Below, piece after piece: positions 5,535-44,592 of a stretch of DNA of 57,429 bases. The stretch is from positions 1-57,429 of the forward strand of contig JAMCQL010000019.1 in assembly GCA_023381615.1 (NCBI GenBank). The letters are read 5' to 3'. Both the position numbers and the translations under genes were made by a program. This stretch comes from Bacteroidota bacterium (GTDB lineage: Bacteria; Bacteroidota; Ignavibacteria; Kryptoniales; JAKASW01). The stretch's first letter is position 1. Every line of letters starts with the position of its first letter. Under the pieces are notes generated by a model, which saw only the letters and a list, made by a program, of their open reading frames with translations, was not told the origin of the DNA and did no database searches.

Positions 5535-6023
5535 CTACTTCTCCCAAAGGGATCCTTCGGAGAGTATCTTTTTTATGATATTCGTGGTCGACTTCCCGTC
5601 AAGATATTCAATCGTAACCACTTTACCGCCGCGTGCTTCAACAATGTCTCTGCCTACTACATCTTCGACTTTCCAGTCGGCGCCTTTGACGAGTATATCC
5701 GGCTGCAGCATGTCGATCGTCTCGTAAGGTGTGTCTTCCTCAAAGATGCAGACATAATCAACGCTCTTTAAATTTGAAATGATAAAGGCGCGATCCTTTT
5801 CGTTGACAATCGGTCTCTTCTCACCCTTTATTTTTTTGACGCTTGTGTCCGAATTTATTCCCACTATTAGAAAATCGCCGAGTTCTTTCGCACGGTTTAG
5901 GTATTCCACATGCCCTTTGTGTAAGATGTCAAAGACACCGTTTGTAAATACAATTTTATTTCCTTCACTCTGCAGCCCGTGCAGAATTGGCGCGAGATCT
6001 TCTCGTGTAAAAATATTAGCCAT
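5535..6023 (-). CDS. rfaE2: D-glycero-beta-D-manno-heptose 1-phosphate adenylyltransferase RfaE2
   Basis: Nucleotidyltransferase of 162 residues that converts heptose-1-phosphate and ATP into ADP-heptose for LPS core synthesis. It shows the cytidylyltransferase-like signature FTNGVFDILHKGHVEYL (HxGH type), GINSDTSVKKIKGEKRP, and KGADWKVEDVVG, and has the normal length for a stand-alone RfaE2. The start chosen is the ATG at 6021-6023, which overlaps the rfaE1 stop as TAATG; a longer reading from 6089 would lie wholly inside rfaE1 and adds no family sequence. The last eight residues (SEGSLWEK) are encoded by a short palindromic element (5542-5561), after which the frame stops. Without the element the frame would read on about as far as the palindrome at 5514-5530. 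Confidence 0.93.
   Translation of the reverse strand: MANIFTREDLAPILHGLQSEGNKIVFTNGVFDILHKGHVEYLNRAKELGDFLIVGINSDTSVKKIKGEKRPIVNEKDRAFIISNLKSVDYVCIFEEDTPYETIDMLQPDILVKGADWKVEDVVGRDIVEARGGKVVTIEYLDGKSTTNIIKKILSEGSLWEK
5542..5561 (-). repeat. Small palindromic element, 20-nt copy, forming the rfaE2 3' end
   Basis: On the plus strand this reads TCCC-AAA-GGGATCCTTCGGA, the same layout as the two inserts in the tRNA-Pro copy (TCCCG-loop-CGGGATCCTTYGGA). It supplies codons 155-161 of rfaE2 and shifts the frame to an immediate TAG. The flanks joined without it (TACTTC|GAGTA) are nearly palindromic around the insertion point, as at the tRNA-Pro insertion sites. Confidence 0.7.
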
Positions 6024-18730: not shown

Positions 18731-18756
18731 TCCGCAGGATCCCGACTTTGTCGGGA
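18731..18756 (+). repeat. Small palindromic element, 26-nt intergenic copy
   Basis: Reads TCCGCAGGATCCCGA-CTTTG-TCGGGA. Its reverse complement is TCCCGACAAAGTCGGGATCC followed by TGCGGA, the same order of parts (TCCCG-loop-CGGGATCCTNYGGA) as the copies in the tRNA-Pro remnant and at the rfaE2 3' end. Confidence 0.7.
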
Positions 18757-33053: not shown

Positions 33054-33344
33054 TCAACTATTGCACAATACCTTTAAAATCGTTTGCGGTGCTTTTGACA
33101 ACAGATTGAGCAATACTAAAGCAGGACCTTGTGGATATCTGTCTCCTCTTTCCCAATGTCTGAGTGTCCCAAGACTTATTCCGAAAGAAGCGGCAAATTT
33201 AGCTTGACTCATCCCCACTCTCTTTCTCAAGCCCTTCACGTCAACATGTTTGGGAGAAAAGACTTTAGCGCCAGTCCTTTTCCCTTTCGAGTATTCAACT
33301 GCTTCTTCTAATCCATTCTTTATACTCTTAAATGTTTCGCTCAT
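33054..33344 (-). CDS. Antitoxin, XRE/HigA-like helix-turn-helix protein
   Basis: 96 residues with an XRE HTH in the C-terminal half (LRKRVGMSQAKFAASFGISL, TLRHWERGDRYPQGPALVLL). This order (extended N-terminus then HTH) is typical of HigA/NadS-type antitoxins that neutralise the partner and repress the operon. Three bases after the toxin gene, with GAGGTG before the ATG. Confidence 0.88.
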   Translation of the reverse strand: MSETFKSIKNGLEEAVEYSKGKRTGAKVFSPKHVDVKGLRKRVGMSQAKFAASFGISLGTLRHWERGDRYPQGPALVLLNLLSKAPQTILKVLCNS

Positions 33345-33347
33345 TTG

Positions 33348-33680
33348 TCACCTCTTATAATTTGATACCAACTTTCCTGTCAACCTTCCTAATTCATTCC
33401 GCTCAGATTTACTTGGATTTTCTTTTTCGCTTTTGCTAGATATTGTCAAGAGAAACAGCAGAATTGTTTCGTTATAAAAGAAATAAATTGTTCTTGACCC
33501 ACCACTCTTGCCTTTACCTTTCGACGCCCGACGCAGTTTTCTAATTCCACCAGTCCCCTCAATGAGATTTCCAGCGTCAGGATTAGCCGATAGATGATAA
33601 AGCAACGCGTCTATTTCTTCGTTAGTGAGAATGCGTTCAGCCCTACGAGTAAACTCAGGCAATTCCACTATTGTGATCAA
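33348..33680 (-). CDS. RelE/HigB-family toxin
   Basis: 110 residues of the RelE/ParE superfamily, HigB2-like: ITIVELPEFTRRAERILTNEEI, LIEGTGGIRKLRRASKGKGKSGGSR with its basic patch, IYFFYNETILLFLLTI, and a C-terminal helix. Such proteins cut mRNA at the ribosome. Toxin-first gene order with the HTH antitoxin directly behind is the HigBA layout. The start appears to be TTG at 33678-33680; GTG four codons later is possible. Confidence 0.87.
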   Translation of the reverse strand: MITIVELPEFTRRAERILTNEEIDALLYHLSANPDAGNLIEGTGGIRKLRRASKGKGKSGGSRTIYFFYNETILLFLLTISSKSEKENPSKSERNELGRLTGKLVSNYKR

Positions 33681-33740: not shown

Positions 33741-34556
33741 TCACTCTTTCTTTCCTTTCCTCAGTTCAATCCCATAAAGGAACAACGGCACGTCGTACTT
33801 CACAGGATCGATTGGATCGAGACACTTGAGCTTCTCTGTAATTTCGACCGCTGTCTTCCAGTTGTCAGTCTTTCTTTTGGTCAACTTGAGTTTCCTTGCC
33901 GCTCTTGAAACGTTTACGTCGAGCGGTATAACAAGTTTGTCTGTGCCGAGCCAATCGTAAAAGCCAAAGTCTATTTCATCGCGCCGCGTCATCCATCTCA
34001 GAAACATATTCATTCTCTTGCAGGCACTTCTCTGTTTAGGACTCGCGAGAAGCGCCCTCGCACGCGGACTTAATTCACCGCCAAGGGAAGAAGGAATTCG
34101 ATACGATTTCATTTCCTCAAGCAGCGCAGTCAGAATGTAATAGACACCCCCTTCTTTGTCATCGGCGTTCAATTTAAGCACATCCTCAATCGTCCCGTGC
34201 GAGTTGACAAGAAGCTTTAGTGTAAACAAGATCTGAACAACATCTTTCCCCGTAATATTCTTATAGGCAAACTGGATGTGTCCATTCATGCTCTTGAGCA
34301 TTCTTGAGTGGCTAAAATTCATAATTGCATCGTAAGGAGACTCACCGAGTTCTGCAAAAATCTTTTCCAGAGATCTGATTATTGCATAACGCGGACCAAT
34401 GGCAAACGTTGCGGCGATGAATGCAGCAGTCTCTACGTCCTGTTTTTTCTTAAATCTTTTTGGAAACCAAATCGGATCGGAGAGATAAAAATCCTTCAGC
34501 AAATTATTCGCTTGATTAAACTCGAAAATCTGCTGGAGACGCTTCAGACCCTCCAT
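33741..34556 (-). CDS. TIGR02757 family protein
   Basis: 271 residues resembling the TIGR02757 (DUF2400) family found widely in Bacteroidota and Spirochaetes: PIWFPKRFKKKQDVETAAFI near the start, GGELSPRARALLASPKQRSACKRMNMFLRWM, and DFGFYDWLGTDKLVIPLDVN. The core resembles a helical DNA-glycosylase-like (HhH-GPD) arrangement, though no enzyme activity is established. Transcribed alone, away from the GIY-YIG region. Confidence 0.8.
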   Translation of the reverse strand: MEGLKRLQQIFEFNQANNLLKDFYLSDPIWFPKRFKKKQDVETAAFIAATFAIGPRYAIIRSLEKIFAELGESPYDAIMNFSHSRMLKSMNGHIQFAYKNITGKDVVQILFTLKLLVNSHGTIEDVLKLNADDKEGGVYYILTALLEEMKSYRIPSSLGGELSPRARALLASPKQRSACKRMNMFLRWMTRRDEIDFGFYDWLGTDKLVIPLDVNVSRAARKLKLTKRKTDNWKTAVEITEKLKCLDPIDPVKYDVPLFLYGIELRKGKKE

Positions 34557-34630: not shown

Positions 34631-34670
34631 TTTGGAAAATTTGGTCGTTCTTGTCGGAACGGCGGGATTC

Positions 34671-34694
34671 TCCCGCAAAGCGGGATCCTTTGGA
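34671..34694 (+). repeat. Small palindromic element, 24-nt copy in the tRNA-Pro remnant
   Basis: TCCCG-CAAAG-CGGGATCCTTTGGA inserted between GGGATTC and GAACCC, i.e. in the T-loop at the centre of the T-arm hairpin. Its first 15 bases are identical to the terminator core at 55205-55219. Confidence 0.8.
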
Positions 34695-34726
34695 GAACCC
34701 GCGACCCCTACCACCCCAAGGTAGTG

Positions 34727-34753
34727 TCCCGAATTAAAACGGGATCCTTCGGA
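34727..34753 (+). repeat. Small palindromic element, 27-nt copy in the tRNA-Pro remnant
   Basis: TCCCG-AATTAAAA-CGGGATCCTTCGGA inserted exactly between GGTAGTG and CGCTACC, the two halves of a dyad spanning the D-arm and anticodon-arm side. Confidence 0.8.
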
Positions 34754-34834
34754 CGCTACCAGGCTGCACATCCACAAAGACTCCGTCTTGGTATTCACGA
34801 CAGTGTCGTCCACAAGATTCATCGATCAAATTCC

Positions 34835-35068
34835 TTAATAATCCTTCTCTTCCGCACCGCGCGGACTCTTCAGAAACATTTCTCTTCGAAAGGCATCCGA
34901 CCTTGTATTGAACTCCTCTGTGTAGATAAGCTTGAAGGGCCGCCATGACTTGGTGGATTTCACTTTGCCTGAATTGTGTGCCTGTACTCGCTTGGGTACA
35001 TCGCTCGCATGGCCGGTATAATGCCACGTATCTTTCAAACTCGTGAGTATGTACAAGTAATACTTCAT
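34835..35068 (-). CDS. GIY-YIG nuclease family protein
   Basis: 77 residues of the small stand-alone GIY-YIG (UvrC N-terminal-like) family: YYLYILTSLKDTWHYTGHAS (Tyr and the YTG variant of the YIG triplet), DVPKRVQAHNSGKVKSTKS with the conserved Arg, and EEFNTRSDAFRREMFLKSP with the metal-binding Glu. The second half GIY-YIG signature has T instead of I. It lies between tRNA-Pro and its duplicated 3' end, so it is probably cargo of a small integrated island. Length is near the usual 80-85. Confidence 0.85.
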   Translation of the reverse strand: MKYYLYILTSLKDTWHYTGHASDVPKRVQAHNSGKVKSTKSWRPFKLIYTEEFNTRSDAFRREMFLKSPRGAEEKDY

Positions 35069-35141
35069 TGCCTATCGTGAAACCCCACTAACTCGTTCGG
35101 ATAGCCCCTGCGGCGACCCATCAACATACCAGAGGATCTTG

Positions 35142-35215
<74 letters not shown>

Positions 35216-36072: not shown

Positions 36073-37110
36073 ATGTTTCTCTTTAAGAGACGCGGTTACT
36101 ATCAGCTTGAATACTTCGATGAGGCTGAAAATCGTTCACGGAGAATTTCCACAGGAACAAAGCACAAACCGGAGGCGCTCCGATTCCTTGCGAATCTCCG
36201 GGAGGAGTTAGCTCACAAGCCAAAGATTGAAGCCGTTACGCTTTCAGGGTTCACAGTGGAATATATTTCTTTCCTGCGAGCCGGACGTTCTCCCAATTAC
36301 GTTACGTCGGCTGACTTCGCCTTGAACAGGCTTCTCCAATTCACGGGAGACCTTCCGCTTTCACGCCTGCATGTCCGAAACTTAGAGCAATTCTTCACAG
36401 AAAGTTTCCAGCGGACAAAGCAAGGGACAGCGCACTACTACCGGACAATCAAAGCGGCATTCAGCAAAGCCGTCGAGTGGAATTATCTCTCCGAGAATCC
36501 ACTGAAGAGAATCAAACTTCCCAAAATACCGAAAAGCCTTCCGCTGTTTATCTCCGAAATTGAACTCGCTTCAATTCTTGAGTCCCTCCAAGGAGACGGC
36601 CGGACAAAACAGGACATGAGAGACTTGTTCACGCTGGCGTTCTACACCGGGTTAAGATTATCGGAGCTTCTCAATCTCGAATGGAACGATGTGAGCATGG
36701 CAGAGCGAATAATCAAAGTGGCAAACACAGAGACGTTCACGACAAAGAGCAAACGGGAGCGAATCATCCCCCTGAACCAGACGGCCCTTGAGATGCTCAA
36801 GAAAAGACAGCCGAAGGTTTTCAGCCTTGACGAAAAGAACTATGTCTTCCAGAAGCATCCCGGCTTGAGATACGAGAGAGACTTTGTCAGCAAGCAATTC
36901 AAGAAGGCAGTCCGAGCCACAGAGCTTAATGGGAACCTTCACTTCCACAGCCTTCGGCATTCATTCGCGTCTAACTTAGTTCAGCGTGGAGTTCCGATAG
37001 TAGCCGTCAAGGAATTACTCGGACATAGCTCAATAGCGACAACCATGATTTACAGTCACGTCCGACGTGAAGACTTAGCGAATGCTGTGAAGATGCTGGA
37101 CGGACACTGA
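36073..37110 (+). CDS. Tyrosine-type site-specific integrase
   Basis: 345 residues. An N-terminal segment (about 1-50), SAM-like core-binding domain (about 55-145) and catalytic domain (about 155-345) with the complete set of residues: Arg195 in TGLRLSELLNLEW, Lys225 in TTKSKRERIIPL, His292-x-x-Arg295 in HSLRHSFAS, His318 in LLGHSSIATT, and nucleophile Tyr327 in MIYSHV. It catalyses element insertion and excision at the flanking 48-bp repeat. Strong ribosome site GGAGGAGG before the ATG. Adjacent to attL, the normal place for an element integrase. Confidence 0.95.
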   Translation: MFLFKRRGYYQLEYFDEAENRSRRISTGTKHKPEALRFLANLREELAHKPKIEAVTLSGFTVEYISFLRAGRSPNYVTSADFALNRLLQFTGDLPLSRLHVRNLEQFFTESFQRTKQGTAHYYRTIKAAFSKAVEWNYLSENPLKRIKLPKIPKSLPLFISEIELASILESLQGDGRTKQDMRDLFTLAFYTGLRLSELLNLEWNDVSMAERIIKVANTETFTTKSKRERIIPLNQTALEMLKKRQPKVFSLDEKNYVFQKHPGLRYERDFVSKQFKKAVRATELNGNLHFHSLRHSFASNLVQRGVPIVAVKELLGHSSIATTMIYSHVRREDLANAVKMLDGH

Positions 37111-37338
37111 GAGAGTCCGTAAGCAAACTTTCGGAGCCGACAAATTGAGTCAAGCAATGCACTGTAAACCTCATTTCTTGCCGTCTATCTTGCCCGACGT
37201 TTGCATTTCTCATGGTACTCAAGTAGAATAAGAGCCAGAGGAAAAACTTGACCAAAGGTTCCTGCGGACGAATAATGTCATTCCTCTATGTTTTTTTACA
37301 GATGATGGGATTAACAGGTAATATCGTGAGGACAATTC

Positions 37339-37989
37339 ATGGAAGTATTTAAGGTTGCAGAATTATCGCATAATACAATGTACCCCCTTAAATCCGCCGG
37401 TCGCGAGAGGTGGCACGTTTTTGCTGGAATAGTGACGAGTTTGGTTAATGTGCCCGACTTTGCTCCGGAGTGTTCATGGGGAATTACGATTGTTGTAGAT
37501 AGGGGACCGAACGCTCGTGAGGTGAAACTCAATACCAGGCACTTTATGAGTCGAAGTGATCTAGCGAAATCTAATACAGAACCAGTCTTCATTACTGAAG
37601 CGTCTTCCCTAATCTTCTTTAGAAATGGTTTTTACATGACTGGAAGACCGATTAATACTCAGGATGAAATGGAAGAGGTTATTCTGAGAGTGAAGAAGAT
37701 TGCGTTTGACGACGAAAGCGAAATATCGACGCTGAGAAATCAAATAGCGAATATTGAGAGTGCAATTGAGTTTTCTCATTCAAAGACTGCACGTCAAGCC
37801 ATCCCAGAAGATGTTAAGCTGGTGGTGTGGGCACGAGACAAAGGCGTTTGCGTCTACTGCGGCTCAAAGGTCAACCTGCAATTTGACCACACCATACCAG
37901 TGGCTAAGGGAGGTGGAAACTCTCCTGAGAACGTCCAGATTCTCTGCCGGGAATGCAACTTGAGGAAATCAGACAAGATTTCCATTTAG
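37339..37989 (+). CDS. HNH endonuclease domain protein
   Basis: 216 residues. The C-terminal third is an HNH nuclease: VWARDKGVCVYCGSKVNLQF with paired Cys, FDHTIPVAKGGGNSPENVQIL with the catalytic His, and CRECNLRKSDK with a second Cys pair and the final N/K. The N-terminal 130 residues have no recognised domain and could sense or bind a target; a short helical linker (ESEISTLRNQIANIESAIE) joins them. Such cargo in small integrated elements often acts in phage interference, or nicks DNA in packaging; neither can be shown here. GAGGAC precedes the ATG. Confidence 0.82.
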   Translation: MEVFKVAELSHNTMYPLKSAGRERWHVFAGIVTSLVNVPDFAPECSWGITIVVDRGPNAREVKLNTRHFMSRSDLAKSNTEPVFITEASSLIFFRNGFYMTGRPINTQDEMEEVILRVKKIAFDDESEISTLRNQIANIESAIEFSHSKTARQAIPEDVKLVVWARDKGVCVYCGSKVNLQFDHTIPVAKGGGNSPENVQILCRECNLRKSDKISI

Positions 37990-38040
37990 TCTTCGTCTGT
38001 CCGAGATATTCTTTTTTATACTCGTTACCACGGTCTACAC

Positions 38041-38260
38041 GGTAGCGAAAAGATTGGCAAAGCCGTTGCAGCAATTGCGGCGCTACACTTTCGGGAACAA
38101 CAGAACAATGAGAAAACTAAAGGCGGCATTCATAACGATGGATTAAGTTCAGAATGTCAACTTGCAAATGAAGTCCAACAAAGTTCAACATATCCCCCGT
38201 TTCGTTCCCGATTTTCGGGAGGCCTTTAGACAAGGCTTGCAGACGGGCGGGGGGATTTTG
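38041..38260 (+). ncRNA. Structured leader A upstream of 38275, three-way-junction fold
   Basis: After a small branched fold GTAGCG/CGCTAC (38042-38086), bases 38194-38253 fold into an outer stem CCCCCG/CGGGGG enclosing two hairpins, TCCCGA-TTT-TCGGGA (38206-38220) and GCCTT/AAGGC (38222-38236), followed by GATTTTG. The fold and much of the sequence recur upstream of 39202 (leader B). No Rfam family recognised. Confidence 0.45.
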
Positions 38261-38274
38261 TTTGAAGGTGAGTG

Positions 38275-38526
38275 ATGACTTTTCAAAAGGAAGAAGGCAG
38301 GAAAATTGAACGTACCAAAACAGGATTGACACCGTTTCAGGCTTTGCTCATGGAGGCTGCTAAGTTCTCAGCCGTTTGCATTTTCGGAGGCCATGGAGTA
38401 GAATTGAAACAGGAAAAAAACTTGCGAGTGATGCTGAAAGCTTTCTTTAACCCCTACCGTTTCCTGATAAAATCGGGAAGACCGACAGCACGGTTCGCAA
38501 ACGGTAGGGGCTTTTTGTTTTTGTGA
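38275..38526 (+). CDS. Doubtful small ORF
   Basis: 83 residues starting after AGGTGAGTG; the last third is encoded by a perfect 12-bp stem-loop (38451-38510) with a T-run, which looks like a terminator or structured RNA rather than coding sequence. The first half (TGLTPFQALLMEAAKFSAVC) is neutral. No family recognised. It may be a short leader peptide gene or not a gene at all. Confidence 0.25.
   Translation: MTFQKEEGRKIERTKTGLTPFQALLMEAAKFSAVCIFGGHGVELKQEKNLRVMLKAFFNPYRFLIKSGRPTARFANGRGFLFL
38451..38525 (+). terminator. Three-way-junction stem-loop with T-run
   Basis: Outer stem CCCCTACCGTTT (38451-38462) with AAACGGTAGGGG (38499-38510), then CTTTTTGTTTTTG. Inside are CCTGAT-AAA-ATCGGG and ACCG-ACAGCA-CGGT, so the fold has the same outline as leaders A and B. 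Placed 57 bases before the lipoprotein gene. Confidence 0.6.
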
Positions 38527-38566
38527 TGAGTTAGCTTCAAGAAGAAGAAAAACGTGGGAGAATAAG

Positions 38567-39034
38567 ATGAAGAGAAGATTGATGTTAGCATTGTTGCTCG
38601 GACCCGTTCTCGCAGGATGCGCGTCTGTTCCGGTTCCCCCTGCTATTCAGGACACAGAAATCATTAACGCTCCATTTGACAAGGTTTGGAGCGCTATTGT
38701 TGGTACACTTGCAGAGCAATCGCTTCCCATTCAATCGATTGACAAGGCAAGCGGACTTGTGACCACACAGTTTGTTGTCTTTGCCAACGGGATTCTGGCG
38801 CAAAGAGCGATTGACAAAGTGGCGGTAAAGCCATCGAGTTTGTTGTACACTTGGAGCGGCGGAAGGTACATGCTGAGTATCTTTGTGACAAAAAGCGGAG
38901 AGAACCAGACACGAGTGAAAATTACTACTCACATCGAAGCATTTGAGAACAACGTCACTTATAGCTGGATGATTTGCTACTCCAACGGCACGATAGAAAA
39001 TCAGCTATTTAACGCTATCAAAGCTAAGATATGA
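38567..39034 (+). CDS. Small lipoprotein of the mobile element
   Basis: 155 residues with a clear lipoprotein signal (MKRRLMLALLLGPVLAGCAS). The mature part (INAPFDKVWSAIVGTLAEQS, TRVKITTHIEAF) resembles BamC-like or SRPBCC-like domains often found in short outer-membrane lipoproteins. As cargo of an integrated element it could alter the cell surface and exclude other phages (inference). Its leader contains the terminator fold at 38451. Confidence 0.72.
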   Translation: MKRRLMLALLLGPVLAGCASVPVPPAIQDTEIINAPFDKVWSAIVGTLAEQSLPIQSIDKASGLVTTQFVVFANGILAQRAIDKVAVKPSSLLYTWSGGRYMLSIFVTKSGENQTRVKITTHIEAFENNVTYSWMICYSNGTIENQLFNAIKAKI

Positions 39035-39122
39035 CGCGAGGGAACCAATTGCTATGATTCGAAAGAGGGTTCCCACTTAACCGCATAACTTGGCGATGTA
39101 CGCCATGGAACAGTTTTAACCG

Positions 39123-39200
39123 CTCGCTTTTCCCGGTTTTTTGGGAGGTTGTTTGGCGACAGCCAGCAACAGGCGAGGTATTCTTATTTGAGAGGTGAAT
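39123..39200 (+). ncRNA. Structured leader B upstream of 39202, related to leader A
   Basis: Outer CTCGC (39123-39127) with GCGAG (39173-39177) encloses TTCCC/GGGAG and GTTG-GGC/GCC-CAAC hairpins. GGGAGG, the position of the second hairpin, the GGCGRGG closing strand and the trailing TTTGARAGGTGARTGATGA all match leader A (38194-38280) after simple alignment. Confidence 0.45.
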
Positions 39201-39201
39201 G

Positions 39202-40026
39202 ATGAAATCACGGAACACAGAGTACCTCAAAGAGGAGTCGTCCACTTATCGCACTATCAGGGTACACGAGATATACGAAGCAGCTGCAAAAGGTAATCTA
39301 TCCATTGAAGAATTCATGGAGGCATTCCGGAAATCAAAGGAAGACTGGATAGCAAAGCTTTACAAGATTGCGATGACCAAGTTTAACGAGTTCCTTTCTA
39401 AGAATGAGCATGTGTCCACTCTTTACCAGGGTTTCGCTTTCCTCTACGACTGTTATGTAAGCGTCGAAGATAATTTGAAGTTCTTTGATTATGTTACACC
39501 CGAAGGGCAGACCATTCCTTTCCCAGCTCAACCTAACCGCGAATATTACCTTTCGCTGAGACCGGTTCTAAAGGAGGACACAGCATCCCGATTGGTAGAT
39601 TTGAAAATTCAAATTCTCGAAGAAGCTCTTCAAATTGTGCCTCATTGGGTGCAAAATGTTATAAAATCATTGGAGCAGGAATCAAGAGAAGATACGCAGG
39701 AACAACTACAAGCACTATCGGTGCATGATACGAAAATATTCATGGAGACATACAGAGAACATAGAGATAATGGATTGCTCAATAGAATACCGAAGATTTT
39801 CCCCGATAAAATACAGATGCTCACAGAAAGAGAAAGATTTGTCGAGACAATAAGGCAGGCAATGAGGGGAATTCTAAAGAAGGGCGGTCGAGTCAATCCT
39901 CACGCAATTGCTAAAGAGGGAGGTATAGCCGACACCAGCCTTAGAGAAGGCATGAAAAAACACATGATTGAGTTCGACAAGAAAGATAAAGTATTCATAG
40001 ACAAAGAGACCGGAAAAAAGTTCTGA
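39202..40026 (+). CDS. Hypothetical protein of the mobile element
   Basis: 274 residues, mostly helical, without a recognised domain. It has no signal peptide or membrane segment. The N-terminal half has acidic helices (YEAAAKGNLSIEEFMEAFRK, KEDWIAKLYKIAMTKFNEFL); the C-terminal part has basic patches (MRGILKKGGRVNPHAIAKEG, KKHMIEFDKKDKVF) that could contact nucleic acid. Start ATG 39202 has GAGAGGTG at suitable spacing; the ATG directly before it (39199) is too close. It is followed by paired TTCACGG repeats and a terminator, so it is its own unit. Candidate accessory or defence protein; function unknown. Confidence 0.7.
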   Translation: MKSRNTEYLKEESSTYRTIRVHEIYEAAAKGNLSIEEFMEAFRKSKEDWIAKLYKIAMTKFNEFLSKNEHVSTLYQGFAFLYDCYVSVEDNLKFFDYVTPEGQTIPFPAQPNREYYLSLRPVLKEDTASRLVDLKIQILEEALQIVPHWVQNVIKSLEQESREDTQEQLQALSVHDTKIFMETYREHRDNGLLNRIPKIFPDKIQMLTERERFVETIRQAMRGILKKGGRVNPHAIAKEGGIADTSLREGMKKHMIEFDKKDKVFIDKETGKKF

Positions 40027-40028
40027 CT

Positions 40029-40119
40029 TTCACGGAATTTCACGGGCAAAGACACACGCGGGTACGTAACACCTCTTTCATCAAACAATAGCAGAAAAAT
40101 CATTCACGGAAATTCACGG
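40029..40119 (+). promoter_or_regulatory. Two pairs of TTCACGG direct repeats
   Basis: TTCACGG at 40029 and 40039, then again at 40103 and 40113; each pair has a period of exactly 10 bp and the two pairs are 74 bp apart. They lie in the 227-base gap before the replication operon. They may be initiator iterons or operator sites. Confidence 0.45.
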
Positions 40120-40181
40120 AACACTCATTGCTTCTATGTGCTCCATGAAAGAAAATGATTTCCAAGTCAGCAAGTTTATTA

Positions 40182-40247
40182 GCCGGAATAAGGGCTTTGG
40201 GTTTTGGAAATACCCCTTTCACCCTTTCCGGCATTTTTATTTTTTTG
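40182..40247 (+). terminator. Stem-loop with T-run directly before the replication operon
   Basis: Outer stem GCCGGAA-(TA)-AGGG with CCCTTTCCGGC, inner GGG/CCC hairpin, then CATTTTTATTTTTTTG. Ends six bases before the ATG at 40254, so it would separate the cargo units from the operon or act as an attenuator in its leader. Confidence 0.6.
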
Positions 40248-40253
40248 TGACAC

Positions 40254-40667
40254 ATGGAAACACAAATCACCCTTCTTCCTAAGACACCCGGACGCTATTA
40301 CGTCCAGCTTACCCTTCCAGATCGCACCACACGCGGCATCGGCGAACTTGATACCACGGCGGGAGTTTACCGAAAACGAATCAAGAGTGGAGACCATTTC
40401 TTCAGACTGAACGGAGAGATTGGCTTCAATGGAGAGCTTCTCTCCAGTCCGAGATTCAAGTTCAGTACTATCGAAGTGACCCTTGACAGCGAAACGCTGG
40501 CGATCTCACGTAAGGATGCCGTCCGCTTCGGGCATTCGCGATCTTTTCACGGTTGGGAAAGACAAATCTTTGTCGGCGTAAAGCACTTCCGAAAGCCGGG
40601 GAACGCGATTCAGCCCGAAGCCCACACAGAGGACTTGCAGCCGTCACTCTTCGAGGCGCTGCCATGA
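40254..40667 (+). CDS. Hypothetical protein, first gene of the replication operon
   Basis: 137 residues, beta-rich (TQITLLPKTPGRYYVQLTLP, FNGELLSSPRFKFSTIEVTL) without known motifs. Shares the stop/start ATGA overlap with the next gene. Begins six bases after the T-run of a stem-loop and has no clear ribosome site, so initiation may depend on leader structure. Related proteins at this place in small elements sometimes bind single-stranded DNA, but that is not shown here. Confidence 0.6.
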   Translation: METQITLLPKTPGRYYVQLTLPDRTTRGIGELDTTAGVYRKRIKSGDHFFRLNGEIGFNGELLSSPRFKFSTIEVTLDSETLAISRKDAVRFGHSRSFHGWERQIFVGVKHFRKPGNAIQPEAHTEDLQPSLFEALP

Positions 40668-40924
40668 TTGAGCGTCTCCCCTTTTTCGCTGAGGATGTTC
40701 GCAGCCTGATTCTGTCAATAGAAGGCACGCTGCAGGAACTTGGCGGGACAAAACCAGGGACAACGCCCGAAGCCCTCCTTCGCCGGAGGCTAACCGATTT
40801 CCTTGAGACAGCGGAGTCCTCACTGATTGACTGCCACGCGATCTTACTTGACGGCACGATGTGCCATGATACCGAAGACCTTGCCCTGTTCATGTCTCAG
40901 GTAGAAAGCGGAGCCGAGCCATGA
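40664..40924 (+). CDS. Hypothetical small protein of the replication operon
   Basis: 86 residues, helical and acidic (LRRRLTDFLETAESSLIDCH). Start chosen at ATG 40664, overlapping the previous stop (ATGA), rather than the longer reading from 40553, which overlaps that gene by over 100 bases. Ends with ATGA overlap to the next gene. Function unknown. Confidence 0.55.
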   Translation: MIERLPFFAEDVRSLILSIEGTLQELGGTKPGTTPEALLRRRLTDFLETAESSLIDCHAILLDGTMCHDTEDLALFMSQVESGAEP

Positions 40925-41607
40925 ACGGATGGATTAAGCTACACAGACAGAGCCTTGATTCAGCCGTATTCCAGAACGGTAACCTCTGGCAAGTGTGGTG
41001 CTGGTGCTTGATGAAAGCAACGCACGAAGAGAAGAAGATGCTGTGGAACGGTCAGGAAATCGTTTTGAGGCCCGGTCAGTTCCTCAGTGGAAGGTTTAGC
41101 GGAGCGAAGGAATGCCACATGAAGCCGTCGACGTTCCGTAACCAGATAGCACTTTTAGAAGAACTCGGAAATCTGGACATAAACTCGGACAGCCGTTCAT
41201 CTCTCATAACCGTGATAAAATGGTGTGAATTTCAAGAAAACAGCAGCGCACAAAAAGGGGCAAGGACAGGTGAAAGGACACCCGAAGGACAGCCGGAGGA
41301 CACAATCAAGAAAGAAAAGAAGGAAGAGAATATAACCTTTACCCTTGGACGTGACCTTCTCTTGGCCGAAGACAAGAACCTGTATTCTGTGATTAACAGA
41401 TTCAAGAAAGAGTTCGGCGGTGAAGAACCGCTAAAGAAGCAATTTGCCAAAATACTCGGAAGTGAAACAAGGTTCATTGACGCGAGACAGCTTGCAGCGT
41501 ACCTGACGGGCTGTCTTAGAAACAACGGGCACGGCAAAGCAACAGAGCCGAAACCAAAGCCGCTGCCTGAATTGAGTAGGGAAACCGAACCGTGGCTGAA
41601 TGGGTAG
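40921..41607 (+). CDS. Replication initiator-like protein (phage replisome organiser / DnaD-type)
   Basis: 228 residues. The N-terminal 100 residues have the phage replisome-organiser layout: GWIKLHRQSLDSAVFQNGNL, WQVWCWCLMKATHEE, WNGQEIVLRPGQFLSG, and a winged-helix element MKPSTFRNQIALLEELG. A charged linker is followed by a C-terminal helical region (YSVINRFKKEFGGEEPLKKQ). These proteins bind an origin and load a helicase; the helicase here is the primase-helicase two genes on. Good support for a role in element replication. Confidence 0.75.
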   Translation: MNGWIKLHRQSLDSAVFQNGNLWQVWCWCLMKATHEEKKMLWNGQEIVLRPGQFLSGRFSGAKECHMKPSTFRNQIALLEELGNLDINSDSRSSLITVIKWCEFQENSSAQKGARTGERTPEGQPEDTIKKEKKEENITFTLGRDLLLAEDKNLYSVINRFKKEFGGEEPLKKQFAKILGSETRFIDARQLAAYLTGCLRNNGHGKATEPKPKPLPELSRETEPWLNG

Positions 41608-41614
41608 GTGGGGC

Positions 41615-41752
41615 ATGAAAACTAAACTCAACATCATGGAGATCGCTTACATGCTTTTCTGTCTCCCTCTTCCCTTTCAGGCGCGGATGATAGGCAAAGT
41701 ATTGATGCGTTATTCCAGAACCGTAAGGACTTTTTTCTATGAGCTATTTTGA
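41615..41752 (+). CDS. Short ORF coupled to the primase-helicase
   Basis: 45 residues starting MKTKLNIMEIAYMLF, seven bases after the preceding stop with a good ribosome site (GGTGGGG), and overlapping the start of the primase-helicase by 14 bases. It may be a small protein or mainly a coupling device for translation of the next gene. No family recognised. Confidence 0.4.
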   Translation: MKTKLNIMEIAYMLFCLPLPFQARMIGKVLMRYSRTVRTFFYELF

Positions 41753-43523
41753 ATTGTACTGTGAAACCGCTATCGGCGGACTGAACAACCGAAACGTGGT
41801 TATCCCTGTCAAGGATTTCCGCCTGAACGGACTACGCAACGAATGCTATCGGAGTGTGTTCCTGTTCGGCCCGGAGCTGAAAACATGGGTTGACAAGACG
41901 GACAGCGTTACCGAATTCACCGGGCCACACACGGCGGATGCTGTTCCCTTCGACTTTGACGGCGAAAATTTATCGGCAGTCAAGGCAGAGGTTGAGAAGT
42001 TCATCGGCTATCTTACAGAAACCTATGAAATCCCCTTGGACTACTTCCGGCTTTCCTTTTCGGGAAACAAGGGCTTTCACGTTGTCATTCCTATCGAGGC
42101 CTTTGTATCGGATCCGAAACCCTCAATCCATTTCGCACAGATCGTTAAAGCAATCGCCGGGGAAATGTCTCAAGGCTTCAGCTTTGTTGATTCTTCCATT
42201 TATGAGTCAAAGAGATTGCTCCGTGTCTTGAACACTGTGAATCTAAAATCGGGACTGCACAAAATCCCGTTGACATTCAGTGAACTGCAAAGCCTGACAG
42301 TGGATGAAATCAAAGAGCTTGCGAAAGAACCGAGGGAGATCGAGGCGCTGGCAACTTCCGAAATCAGCCCGGTAGAATCGTTGTCTGCATTATGGGCCAA
42401 ATGGTACAGCCACGATTTCAGAGAGCGTAAGAAGACGGAAAGGCACGACAGCGACATTTTCCAGCTACTCCGGGGTGCAGAGCAAGGCAGCCGGAACGAT
42501 GCAGCCATTAAGCTTGCCGGGACATATCTTGCAGCGGGCCTCAACGAATCCCTTACCCTTGCCACGCTGGAAGCATGGAACAAGCAGAATAATCCTCCAC
42601 TTCCTCAAGGTGAACTTGAAGGGGTTGTTCACGGAGCTTTTCAGCGCTACAAGAAAGAGAGCACGGAAGCTGTCAGAGTGTACGATCTTAGAGATGCTGG
42701 CAAAGTCTATGCTGAATTCATTGGCAGCATGAAGAAGGCAAAGGCGCACACCGGCTTTGAGACCGTTGATAAGAAGTTACGCGGGATAATGCCCGGCGAA
42801 TCCCTCTGCGTACTTGGCAAAACATCAGTCGGCAAGTCCGCATTTCTCCAAAACGCGGGAATAAACTACGCAAAGAGTTCGGGGAGGCCAGTCCTGTTTT
42901 TCTCAATGGAAATGCCTATTACCTCCGTGTTCGAAAGAGCCGCACAAATCGAGTTCGAACTATCCGGCTATGAAATCGAGAATGACCTTACGCGGAACAC
43001 CGGGGACATTCAAGGTTTCGCCGAGATGCTATTCAGCAAGATTCCGAATTTCTATTGCATCGAGAAGAACGGCTTGACTCTCGAAGCAATTGAATCGCTT
43101 GTCCGGTACGCCGAAGAAAACGTGTACCACGACAAGACAGGTTTAGTCTTGATTGATTATCTTGGGCTTGTGAAGTCAAGCGGGAAAGACATATACGAGC
43201 AAGTCAGCAAGGTGGCACGTGGCATGAAAGACCTTGCGAAGTCTCTCGGAGTCCCGATTATCTTCTTGTCCCAAGTTAACCGGAACTATTCTGCCTTCGA
43301 GGAACTCCAGATTGATGCTGCCCGCGACAGCGGAGCGGTTGACGAAGCCTCCGATTTCATCCTCGGACTCTGGCGCGAACAAGTCGGCAGCGAGGATGAT
43401 ACAAGTCCGGAAATGAGGTTGAAACTTGGAATCCTGAAGAACAGGCGCGGTGGACTAGGAAAAATTACAGTCGAGATGGAACGCCGGACGCTGAGAATGA
43501 AGGAAGTGGACGGTCAAATATGA
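41739..43523 (+). CDS. AEP-type primase fused to DnaB/RepA-type helicase
   Basis: 594 residues. The N-terminal domain has archaeo-eukaryotic-type primase motifs: PFDFDGEN (metal Asp about 72 and 74), SFSGNKGFHV (about 107-115, catalytic SGxKGFH), and a later strand near SIYESKRLLRVLN. A PriCT-like helical segment follows (about 235-305). The C-terminal half is a RecA-fold helicase: Walker A GKTSVGKSAF (360-369), FFSMEMP, Walker B LVLIDYLGL (Asp about 473), and IIFLSQVNR. Such fusions prime and unwind DNA for autonomous replication of satellites and plasmids. Central gene of the element. Confidence 0.87.
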   Translation: MSYFELYCETAIGGLNNRNVVIPVKDFRLNGLRNECYRSVFLFGPELKTWVDKTDSVTEFTGPHTADAVPFDFDGENLSAVKAEVEKFIGYLTETYEIPLDYFRLSFSGNKGFHVVIPIEAFVSDPKPSIHFAQIVKAIAGEMSQGFSFVDSSIYESKRLLRVLNTVNLKSGLHKIPLTFSELQSLTVDEIKELAKEPREIEALATSEISPVESLSALWAKWYSHDFRERKKTERHDSDIFQLLRGAEQGSRNDAAIKLAGTYLAAGLNESLTLATLEAWNKQNNPPLPQGELEGVVHGAFQRYKKESTEAVRVYDLRDAGKVYAEFIGSMKKAKAHTGFETVDKKLRGIMPGESLCVLGKTSVGKSAFLQNAGINYAKSSGRPVLFFSMEMPITSVFERAAQIEFELSGYEIENDLTRNTGDIQGFAEMLFSKIPNFYCIEKNGLTLEAIESLVRYAEENVYHDKTGLVLIDYLGLVKSSGKDIYEQVSKVARGMKDLAKSLGVPIIFLSQVNRNYSAFEELQIDAARDSGAVDEASDFILGLWREQVGSEDDTSPEMRLKLGILKNRRGGLGKITVEMERRTLRMKEVDGQI

Positions 43524-43786
43524 GCAAAGAATCGCTGCAATTGGTTAAGACTCAAAGCAGTAACGAAAACCCCTACCCTATCATCGAGGGAAACCTGAAA
43601 GTCCGAAATCTCAAGGCTGCTAAGAGGCTGATGAGTAAACTAATCGAAGCCTTTATCGCGGGGAGAGTAACGGGAAACGATGCCAAAACTTTGGCTTACC
43701 TTACGTCAACATATATTGAAGTTGCTCAGGCAGCGGACTTGGAAGACCGATTAATTAAACTTGAAACCAAATTACTTCAGAGGTAA
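43520..43786 (+). CDS. Hypothetical small helical protein
   Basis: 88 residues overlapping the primase-helicase stop (ATGA). Helical, with NLKAAKRLMSKLIEAFIAGR and AADLEDRLIKLETKLLQR, the latter a likely coiled coil. Resembles short accessory proteins following replication genes in phages. Function unknown. Confidence 0.6.
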   Translation: MSKESLQLVKTQSSNENPYPIIEGNLKVRNLKAAKRLMSKLIEAFIAGRVTGNDAKTLAYLTSTYIEVAQAADLEDRLIKLETKLLQR

Positions 43787-43788
43787 CC

Positions 43789-44007
43789 ATGAAAAATTTA
43801 CAAGCACGTCTTGAACGAATCGAGCAACAAATCGGCATGAACTCGACCCAGAAGGTCATCGTTGACGACATAGGCTATGACGGCATGGACGCAATCCCGA
43901 CAGTGGAAGTATCAGCAATTGCTCACCAGCTGGCAGCGCGGAGACGGTTCCCTGTTTGTATCGTTCACGGTTCAGATATTCTTCAAGCATGGGAGGGAGA
44001 CCGATGA
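43789..44007 (+). CDS. Hypothetical small protein, paralogue 1
   Basis: 72 residues starting two bases after the previous stop. MKNLQARLERIEQQIG forms a short coiled coil also found at the start of the following gene. The rest (VEVSAIAHQLAARRRFPVCI) is unlike it. Function unknown. Confidence 0.55.
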   Translation: MKNLQARLERIEQQIGMNSTQKVIVDDIGYDGMDAIPTVEVSAIAHQLAARRRFPVCIVHGSDILQAWEGDR

Positions 44008-44186
44008 AAAGCCTTGAAGCGCGGTTAAAAAGGTTAGAGGATATTGTATCGCCGCGAGAAGTGGAGTTCATAATTGAAATCGGCATCTGTGAAGACACGC
44101 CGGAAAACGTATCGGAAATAATTGTCATCGAGCCTAAGAAGCCAATATCCGACCCCCGGAGAAAGACAAGCAAGGTCTCCGAATAA
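44004..44186 (+). CDS. Hypothetical small protein, paralogue 2
   Basis: 60 residues overlapping the previous stop (ATGA). Start MKSLEARLKRLEDIV repeats the MK(N/S)L(Q/E)ARL(E/K)R(I/L)E pattern of the gene before. Ends just before the operon terminator. Function unknown. Confidence 0.55.
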   Translation: MKSLEARLKRLEDIVSPREVEFIIEIGICEDTPENVSEIIVIEPKKPISDPRRKTSKVSE

Positions 44187-44205
44187 AATCAATTCTTTGC
44201 CGTCA

Positions 44206-44253
44206 AAAATGCCCCTGGTTGAATTATCTTTTGTTGGTTGTGAGGGGCATTTT
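44206..44253 (+). terminator. Terminator of the element's replication operon
   Basis: Perfect 11-bp stem AAAATGCCCCT (44206-44216) with AGGGGCATTTT (44243-44253), 26-base loop. Shields the right end and tRNA-Arg from operon readthrough, which makes the tRNA depend on a promoter in the next 300 bases. Confidence 0.65.
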
Positions 44254-44544
44254 CCGTTGTACCATGATGCATAATCCAGAGTGTTTACCCCTCTTGACTT
44301 CACGAGGGCACATAAGTTAAATTCTTTCACCATGAAACTCGAATCTGCGTCGAGACAAGTTGATTTTGAGAAAGCCGTTGGAGCCTTTGGCAACGCAGAG
44401 CCGGAGTTTCGCTTCAGCGGCTTTTCTCGTTTTATCAAGTTCACAGCAGCACGCTGGAATGTACAGTAAAATGCACAGTTTGAATCCAGACAAAATTCAA
44501 ATGAGGGCAAAAGACTTCTCCGAAAATCTGCGAAATCAGTTAGT
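44254..44544. other. Element right-end non-coding region
   Basis: About 290 bases between the terminator and attR. It should hold a promoter for the rebuilt tRNA-Arg. A 45-codon plus-strand frame (44332-44469) has no ribosome site and no recognised family. A minus-strand frame runs through the terminator and tRNA and is taken as spurious. Confidence 0.4.
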
Positions 44545-44592
44545 TTTTCAACGCGCCTGTAGCTCAATTGGATAGAGCAACAGACTTCGGAT
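44545..44592 (+). repeat. Right attachment site (attR)
   Basis: 48 bases identical to attL (35889-35936), covering eight bases upstream of the tRNA and tRNA-Arg nucleotides 1-40. Confidence 0.92.

Follow-up and report, generated by a model that had tools for sequence, protein, structure and literature searches.

The tRNA-Pro locus and its two inserts

The window, i.e. the whole stretch of 57,429 nucleotides that was analysed, corresponds to one contig (C81) of an assembly of 3.37 Mb in 86 contigs, which is labelled G000 and was compared with 12 other genomes of the genus. An intact, uninterrupted tRNA-Pro(GGG) gene is encoded on its minus strand (35141..35215), was identified by both ARAGORN and Rfam, and serves as comparison copy. 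About 370 bp away lies a truncated second copy of the same tRNA (34649..34767, tRNA sense on the minus strand), and the two copies are separated by a small gene with a GIY-YIG nuclease domain (34853..35065, minus strand; PF01541, E 4.1e-14). A DUF2400 gene (33741..34556, minus strand; PF09674) served as synteny anchor for the locus in relatives, with a match in 13 of 13 genomes of the genus, this one included. Ten MAGs (nine labelled Bacteroidetes bacterium, one Candidatus Kryptoniota bacterium) encode DUF2400 proteins with 63-75% identity to this one, and among the matches listed the other 70 loci reach at most 40%. Between the DUF2400 gene and an amidase gene we found an HTH/RelE-type toxin-antitoxin pair (33054-33680). 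Genes for a tyrosine integrase and an HNH protein (36073-44552) are located in about 9 kb between MerR and a tRNA-Arg; since the distance from tRNA-Pro to tRNA-Arg is about 0.55-1.1 kb in those relatives where both were found, an island was probably inserted here.

The broken tRNA-Pro copy spans 119 nt. After removal of two inserts of 24 and 27 nt, 68 nt are left, and these are identical in 68 of 68 positions to a stretch in and just beside the intact tRNA-Pro (35137-35204). The 24-nt element (34671..34694, plus strand) consists of TCCCGC-AAA-GCGGGA followed by TCC-TTT-GGA and is located after base 57 in tRNA sense, which places it in the T-loop (GGTTC|GAATC, site TTC|GAA). The 27-nt element (34727..34753, plus strand) consists of TCCCG-N8-CGGGA followed by TCC-TTC-GGA and is located after base 25 in tRNA sense (GTAGCG|CACTAC). 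Only one placement of each insert restores the empty site, so that the boundaries TCCCG...GGA are exact, and target-site duplication is absent. The original prediction, made from the letters of this DNA, had described the two inserts and the 68/68 match, and our re-alignment with its unique placements agrees on both. It had added that no other change separates the copies, which holds inside the 68 nt, but the broken copy is also truncated, with 11 bases missing at the start of the tRNA. ARAGORN did not call the broken copy as a tRNA, and Rfam at gathering thresholds gave no matches other than tRNAs, either in the window or in 20 loci.

Inserts at this locus were also detected in sister species. 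In G006 and G002, a tRNA-Pro fragment at the same locus is interrupted by about 22 nt at the same T-loop position, a partial tRNA-Pro fragment in G004 contains a hairpin at about the position of the T-loop insert, and in G007 the second tRNA-Pro site holds a 20-nt insert.

A family of short elements multiplied in one genome

Around one hundred copies of a hairpin-like piece of 18-27 nt are found in G000. Their layout is a hairpin-like stretch TCC...GGA, directly followed by TCC-TTY-GGA. The A form, defined by the TCCCG pattern, has 31 matches in the genome (17 forward and 14 reverse), while the same pattern read backwards has 0. Two exact matches are located in the window, where shuffled sequences average 0.00 matches with a largest count of 0. 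Among 60 relatives, four contain one match each and the other 56 contain none. The B form, TCC-NNN-GGA-TCC-TTY-GGA, is 18 nt long and gives 134 strand hits in G000, 66 and 68 per strand, with palindromic copies counted on both. Nine of the 12 genus-mates have 1-8 hits to the B form and three have none; out of 296 genomes of the phylum ten match, G000 included, and the other nine have at most 5 hits each. Two of the six B hits in G002 are on contigs that closely match G000. Reversed-pattern controls gave 0 hits. A genome-wide count of the TCCCG pattern against shuffles had been proposed with the original prediction, which an absence of further copies would have contradicted; both forms recur well beyond the two inserts. 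Judging by these counts, the element has multiplied in its own species in a lineage-specific burst.

Two further members of the family are located in the window, namely a 26-nt variant copy, TCCCGACAAAGTCGGGATCCTGCGGA (18731..18756, minus strand), and a 20-nt short form, TCCC-AAA-GGGA-TCC-TTC-GGA (5542..5561, plus strand). Our catalogue of the sequence examined holds, with identical flanks merged, 25 A copies, 75 B copies (second loop relaxed) and three copies of a 30-nt form, TGAGCC-NNN-GGCTCA-TCAGCC-NNN-GGCTGA. A piece resembling this 30-nt form is found at the T-loop of a tRNA-Leu fragment in G000. Thirty A loci were examined, of which 12 lie within one larger repeat and one (L021) in a related repeat; the flanks of the rest are unrelated by eye. 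In the larger repeat the A copies occupy one and the same place (L001, L002, L004, L007, L013-L016, L020, L022, L024 and L026), and the copy of L021 occupies another. What looks like another related hairpin family is represented by six copies of TCGAGATCCTTTGGA (G000 C39:2395, C41:7113, C41:46121, C43:22524, C49:21064 and C49:28864), two of which are preceded by GACTCG.

Double hairpins in general are numerous in G000, with 114 found compared to 42-57 in three first-order resamples, and 252 compared to 101-137 in resampled sequence under a looser definition, an excess that is inflated by the choice of stretches partly around known copies. G006 shows no clear excess (132 double hairpins compared to 99-125 in resampled sequence). 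Folded as single-stranded DNA, the 24-nt insert is predicted to form two hairpins (-6.3 kcal/mol, z -2.8 against shuffles), and so is the commonest A copy, which represents the A consensus (z -2.3). Two hairpins are likewise predicted for the 27-nt insert, but they are no better than those of shuffles (z -0.6). The 18-nt form, of which one copy was folded, is close to a simple palindrome and of negligible stability (-0.2 kcal/mol). By these scores the designation as a double hairpin is well supported for the A form only.

Occupied and empty sites

Several copies interrupt conserved protein genes and can be compared with empty sites in relatives. The alanyl-tRNA synthetase (AlaRS) of G000 is nine residues (27 nt) longer between HVL and EGG; none of the 10 orthologous proteins aligned has this addition, an eleventh genome lacks it at the DNA level, and the twelfth has a fragment that ends short of the site. 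A 27-nt insert in NuoN is absent in all 12 genus-mates, nine of which have a single proline adjoining the empty point (alanine in G000) and three of which have other short stretches there. Six extra residues (18 nt) in aconitase are absent in all 12 genus-mates as well, with G005 (L343) having at this position an unrelated stretch of seven residues that does not form a hairpin. The copy in a prolyl oligopeptidase is matched in PDB 3iuj by gaps that add up to 9 residues. For three B copies (L339, L304 and L320) the joined flanks align at the DNA level to G006 and are gap-free at the junction. We also found one clear case of nesting, with a B copy inside a B copy (L164).

All comparisons of occupied and empty sites are between species, and wherever the empty sites are comparable they demonstrate, at the level of sequence, discrete insertion of an exact unit without target duplication. 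The claim that these units move as discrete pieces, which had initially been based on the tRNA-Pro copy, is in this way supported by further copies and by the occupied and empty pairs in AlaRS, NuoN and aconitase.

A number of candidates were discarded. A second match to a nested copy (L161) looks like a chance pattern match, the copy in RuvC lies past the end of the best PDB-chain alignments, and those in a histidine kinase and in CinA fall in variable loops of the PDB chains. A counter-example is L303, a relaxed B match for which a similar sequence is present in the relative and which is probably ordinary coding DNA. On the G002 contigs that closely match G000, the B copies are at the same places and no difference in presence or absence of an element was seen. 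Two of these loci, L193 (G002:C60) and L189 (G002:C58), are 100% and 90% identical to G000 over 1.8-1.9 kb compared to 75% identity at the aconitase locus of G002, which points to a possible contamination of the G002 bin.

Target preference

Out of the 75 B copies, 44 were oriented by their asymmetric loops and not by their flanks. On the left side of these copies we observed C at position -4 (32 copies), T or C at -3 (36), T at -2 (29) and G or C at -1 (33), and on the right side A at +2 (36) and A or G at +3 (34). The left flanks of A copies (n = 23) agree with those of the B form, with C at -4 in 12, T at -2 in 19 and G at -1 in 17 copies; their right flanks are weaker, with A at +2 in 10 and G at +4 in 13. 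One-sided, uncorrected p values for the nine positions tested range from 3e-14 to 0.003. The aligned flanks establish a preference of the element for CYTS|NAR targets. Because some orthologues (AlaRS, NuoN and L304) keep the left flank without the element, this flank belongs to the target and not to the element. Of the two tRNA-Pro sites, the T-loop site ATTC|GAAC fits this target at -3, -2, -1, +2 and +3 with a misfit at -4, and the second site, AGTG|CGCT, agrees with it at no more than three positions (-2, -1 and +1).

A symmetric target, YTG|CAR, was rejected as an artefact of mixed orientations in the near-palindromic B form, as oriented copies give CYTS|NAR. No co-variation was seen between left and right flanks. 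A hairpin formed by the target itself was rejected too, since neither flank complementarity nor the duplex energy of joined flanks was clearly above that of permuted pairings; for A copies alone, 38 of 300 permutations were at or below the observed energy. Junction hairpins of at least 6 bp occur in 9 of 103 joined flanks compared to a permuted mean of 3.5 (sd 1.7, maximum 9), an excess that takes in nested copies.

Copies in protein-coding genes

Open frames of at least 180 codons, some of which may be spurious, hold 9 of the 25 A copies and 32 of the 75 B copies. On long stretches such frames contain 8 of 21 A and 8 of 23 B copies compared to 76% of random positions, indicating that genes are avoided but not closed to the element. 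Each of the nine A copies located in such a frame measures 27 or 24 nt, and none of the four 26-nt copies is found in one. Furthermore, all six frames are free of stop codons in 23 of the 25 A copies and 65 of the 75 B copies compared to 14% and 28% of random windows, a scarcity of stops to which the invariant, G+C-rich positions of the pattern contribute. Together with this rarity of stops, a length that is in most cases divisible by three helps to account for the in-frame copies in protein genes.

tRNA fragments beside GIY-YIG genes

Thirty GIY-YIG loci were examined in the genus, among many more matches. A tRNA gene is present in 12 and absent in 18 of them; of the 12 that have one, 11 also hold a partial duplicate of it close by, with two pairs of loci overlapping. 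An automated pass over the T-loops returned 13 rows, from which L142 and L248 were dropped for a wrong anchor; the 11 usable fragments with both T-loop halves have an insert of 22-84 nt exactly at TTC|RA in six cases and none in five. Seven T-loop inserts were folded, and two hairpins are predicted for five of them, the exceptions being those of the tRNA-Pro of G002 and the tRNA-Leu of G000. Partial copies, many of them hairpin-bearing, were seen for tRNA-Pro, -Gln, -Val, -Met, -Leu, -Arg, -Ser and -Ala. Small GIY-YIG genes adjoin a tRNA gene and a partial copy of it at L208, L209, L210, L212, L215, L216, L221, L228, L229, L246, L248, L251, L252 and L254; the tRNA-Pro locus is represented by L141, L142 and L151. 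In tRNA-Gln and tRNA-Val fragments of several species, hairpins of the type TCCCG...CGGGA with different stem sequences are found in place of the anticodon arm.

At about positions 1896-2780 of L245 (G000:C74:27500-32000), two tandem GIY-YIG units that are identical over the gene follow a tRNA-Gln. The tRNA-Gln fragments of the two units are distinguished by a 31-nt pair of hairpins and an insert in the T-loop, and the first fragment looks like the result of a crossover with the intact tRNA. The tRNA fragments of G006 carry double hairpins although its genome has no clear excess of them, which suggests that T-loop inserts may have another source; the inserts in tRNA fragments beside GIY-YIG genes may represent a second, separate system. 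Among the publication titles listed, with subscription papers thinly covered, none dealt with these elements or with tRNA/GIY-YIG units of this group.

Y1 transposase genes

The genome of G000 has 11 matches to the Y1_Tnp domain. Ten of the 11 loci were examined, and eight of these are without an A- or B-like copy. L235 contains two B-type copies, on one side only, the nearer of which is about 180 bp from the Y1 domain and directly adjoins a hairpin repeat of that locus. L244 contains one A copy about 1.5 kb from a sub-threshold Y1 match. Hairpins listed beside Y1 genes, in the flanks of nine Y1 matches, are mostly other sequences. A search for a RAYT/IS200-type transposase, as had been proposed with the original prediction, therefore yields Y1 domains but no convincing link between them and the elements.

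Proposed origin and movement of the elements

We interpret the two inserts in the tRNA-Pro copy as belonging to a miniature mobile DNA element, non-autonomous and 18-27 nt long (probability roughly 0.85). A nuclease of the host or of a mobile element would open CYTS|NAR sites, a strand of the element would be joined in at the opened target, and replication would then fix the joined element. The T-loop of tRNAs (TTC|RA) would offer a match to part of this target, and the tRNA fragments beside GIY-YIG genes might be neutral places where inserts persist. Points against the mobile-element interpretation are the negligible fold of the 18-nt form, the shuffle-level fold of the 27-nt insert, the lack of co-variation between the flanks and the weak right-hand fit of the A copies.

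The age of the tRNA-Pro inserts is a separate matter. They had been regarded as recent and independent, which is not supported here, since both sites are occupied in sister species and the identity of two copies with about 370 bp between them gives no age for the insertions. The shared occupancy may go back to a common ancestor, in which case the intact tRNA would have kept the fragment alike by gene conversion, or else to a target hotspot. That the inserts are in fact old and shared by descent, with the 68/68 identity maintained by such conversion, is a tentative alternative that we regard as somewhat less than probable: the occupied T-loop position in G006 and G002, the occupied second site in G007 and the apparent recombination between tandem copies at the tRNA-Gln locus of G000 are in line with it, but the sequences and lengths differ between species (24, ~22, 27 and 20 nt) and the two inserts of G000 match the family dispersed in its own genome. 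Very improbable, in our view, is that the remnant functions as a tRNA-like RNA closing the GIY-YIG message at its 3′ end and that selection maintains its hairpins. The recurring replacement of the anticodon arm in tRNA-Gln and tRNA-Val fragments would fit such a role, but the fragments are truncated to varying extents and at either end, and the T-loop is intact in five of 11.

The remaining explanations overlap with each other and with the mobile-element interpretation. The hairpins in tRNA fragments could be scars of double-strand-break repair, left where a GIY-YIG nuclease cuts T-loops and the break is filled by snap-back synthesis with a short hairpin, so that the cut site is lost, with the dispersed copies being separate or escaped scars. 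The frequent partial tRNA copies at tRNA-bearing GIY-YIG loci, the inserts exactly at TTC|RA and the lack of a clear genome-wide excess of double hairpins in G006 argue for this, yet we consider it unlikely, as 18 of the 30 GIY-YIG loci have no tRNA gene, both tRNA-Pro inserts match the dispersed family, the inserts in AlaRS, NuoN and aconitase are clean, and the target motif is broader than TTC|RA. Movement by a Y1 transposase (REP-associated or IS200/IS605-like), as is thought for REPINs, appears quite unlikely. Insertion of IS200/IS605 elements proceeds with exact joins, without duplication and at a short left-hand motif, which the joins described here resemble, and Y1 domains are present, one of them close to a B copy at L235; against this, most of the Y1 loci are without A or B copies, their listed flanking hairpins are mostly of other sequence, and the target of the B form also has a right-hand preference (A at +2 in 36 of 44). 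A more speculative combination, to which we give little credence, would regard the tRNA-linked GIY-YIG genes as tRNA-cutting mobile cassettes, whose hairpins would be both a scar against recutting and the source of the dispersed elements; this would be ultrashort mobile DNA moved by a homing-type nuclease and not by a transposase.

Comparison with known systems

Cyanobacteria reportedly contain small dispersed repeats (SDR) of 21-27 nt that are mobile, nested, of shared secondary structure and restricted to one clade, as is said to have been described by Elhai et al. in 2008 in Genome Res. To judge by this description, the miniature elements of G000 are alike in being very small mobile repeats with a nested copy (L164), and in secondary structure the two hairpins predicted for the A consensus and the 24-nt insert may be compared, the 18-nt form not being stable. 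Unlike the SDR, they occur in a Bacteroidota host, include an 18-nt form and in-frame copies in conserved genes, and prefer a CYTS|NAR target. Double-hairpin elements are also said to have been reported from the mitochondria of Allomyces by Paquin et al. In sponge mitochondria, repetitive hairpin-forming elements with single or double hairpins occur in genes and spacers; their mobility is deduced from species comparisons, and DNA or RNA routes are discussed (PMC2800124). The copy number of the elements described here likewise differs between close relatives, and two adjacent hairpins are predicted for the A consensus and the 24-nt insert, at shuffle level for the 27-nt insert and not at all for the 18-nt form. 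Differences to the mitochondrial elements are the location on a bacterial chromosome, the few or absent stops in six frames and the target motif.

Rickettsia palindromic elements are described as palindromic selfish DNA of about 150 bp that is found in frame in protein genes (PMC10969869). The in-frame insertions in AlaRS, NuoN and aconitase, absent from orthologues, are similar, but measured against the size given there our elements are far shorter, with 18-27 nt overall and exact inserts of 27 and 18 nt. REPINs, which are treated together with RAYTs, are short palindromic non-autonomous DNA multiplied in one genome (PMC3116915). In this the elements of G000 resemble them, but a convincing cognate Y1 gene was not found in G000 and many copies lie inside open frames. 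By analogy, our best reading is that the element would behave as cyanobacterial SDRs, the double-hairpin elements of mitochondria and Rickettsia palindromic elements do, as a variant of that kind which is a member of no one family.

To our knowledge, the question how DNA of about 20 nt moves as a unit has been open from the time when mobility was first proposed for very small repeats. The exact occupied and empty pairs, the target consensus, the nested copy and the species-specific burst make the mechanism testable in this lineage. For annotation, the extra peptides STGSFG in aconitase and SRKRSGSFG in AlaRS are to be read as insertions and not as conserved features of these proteins.
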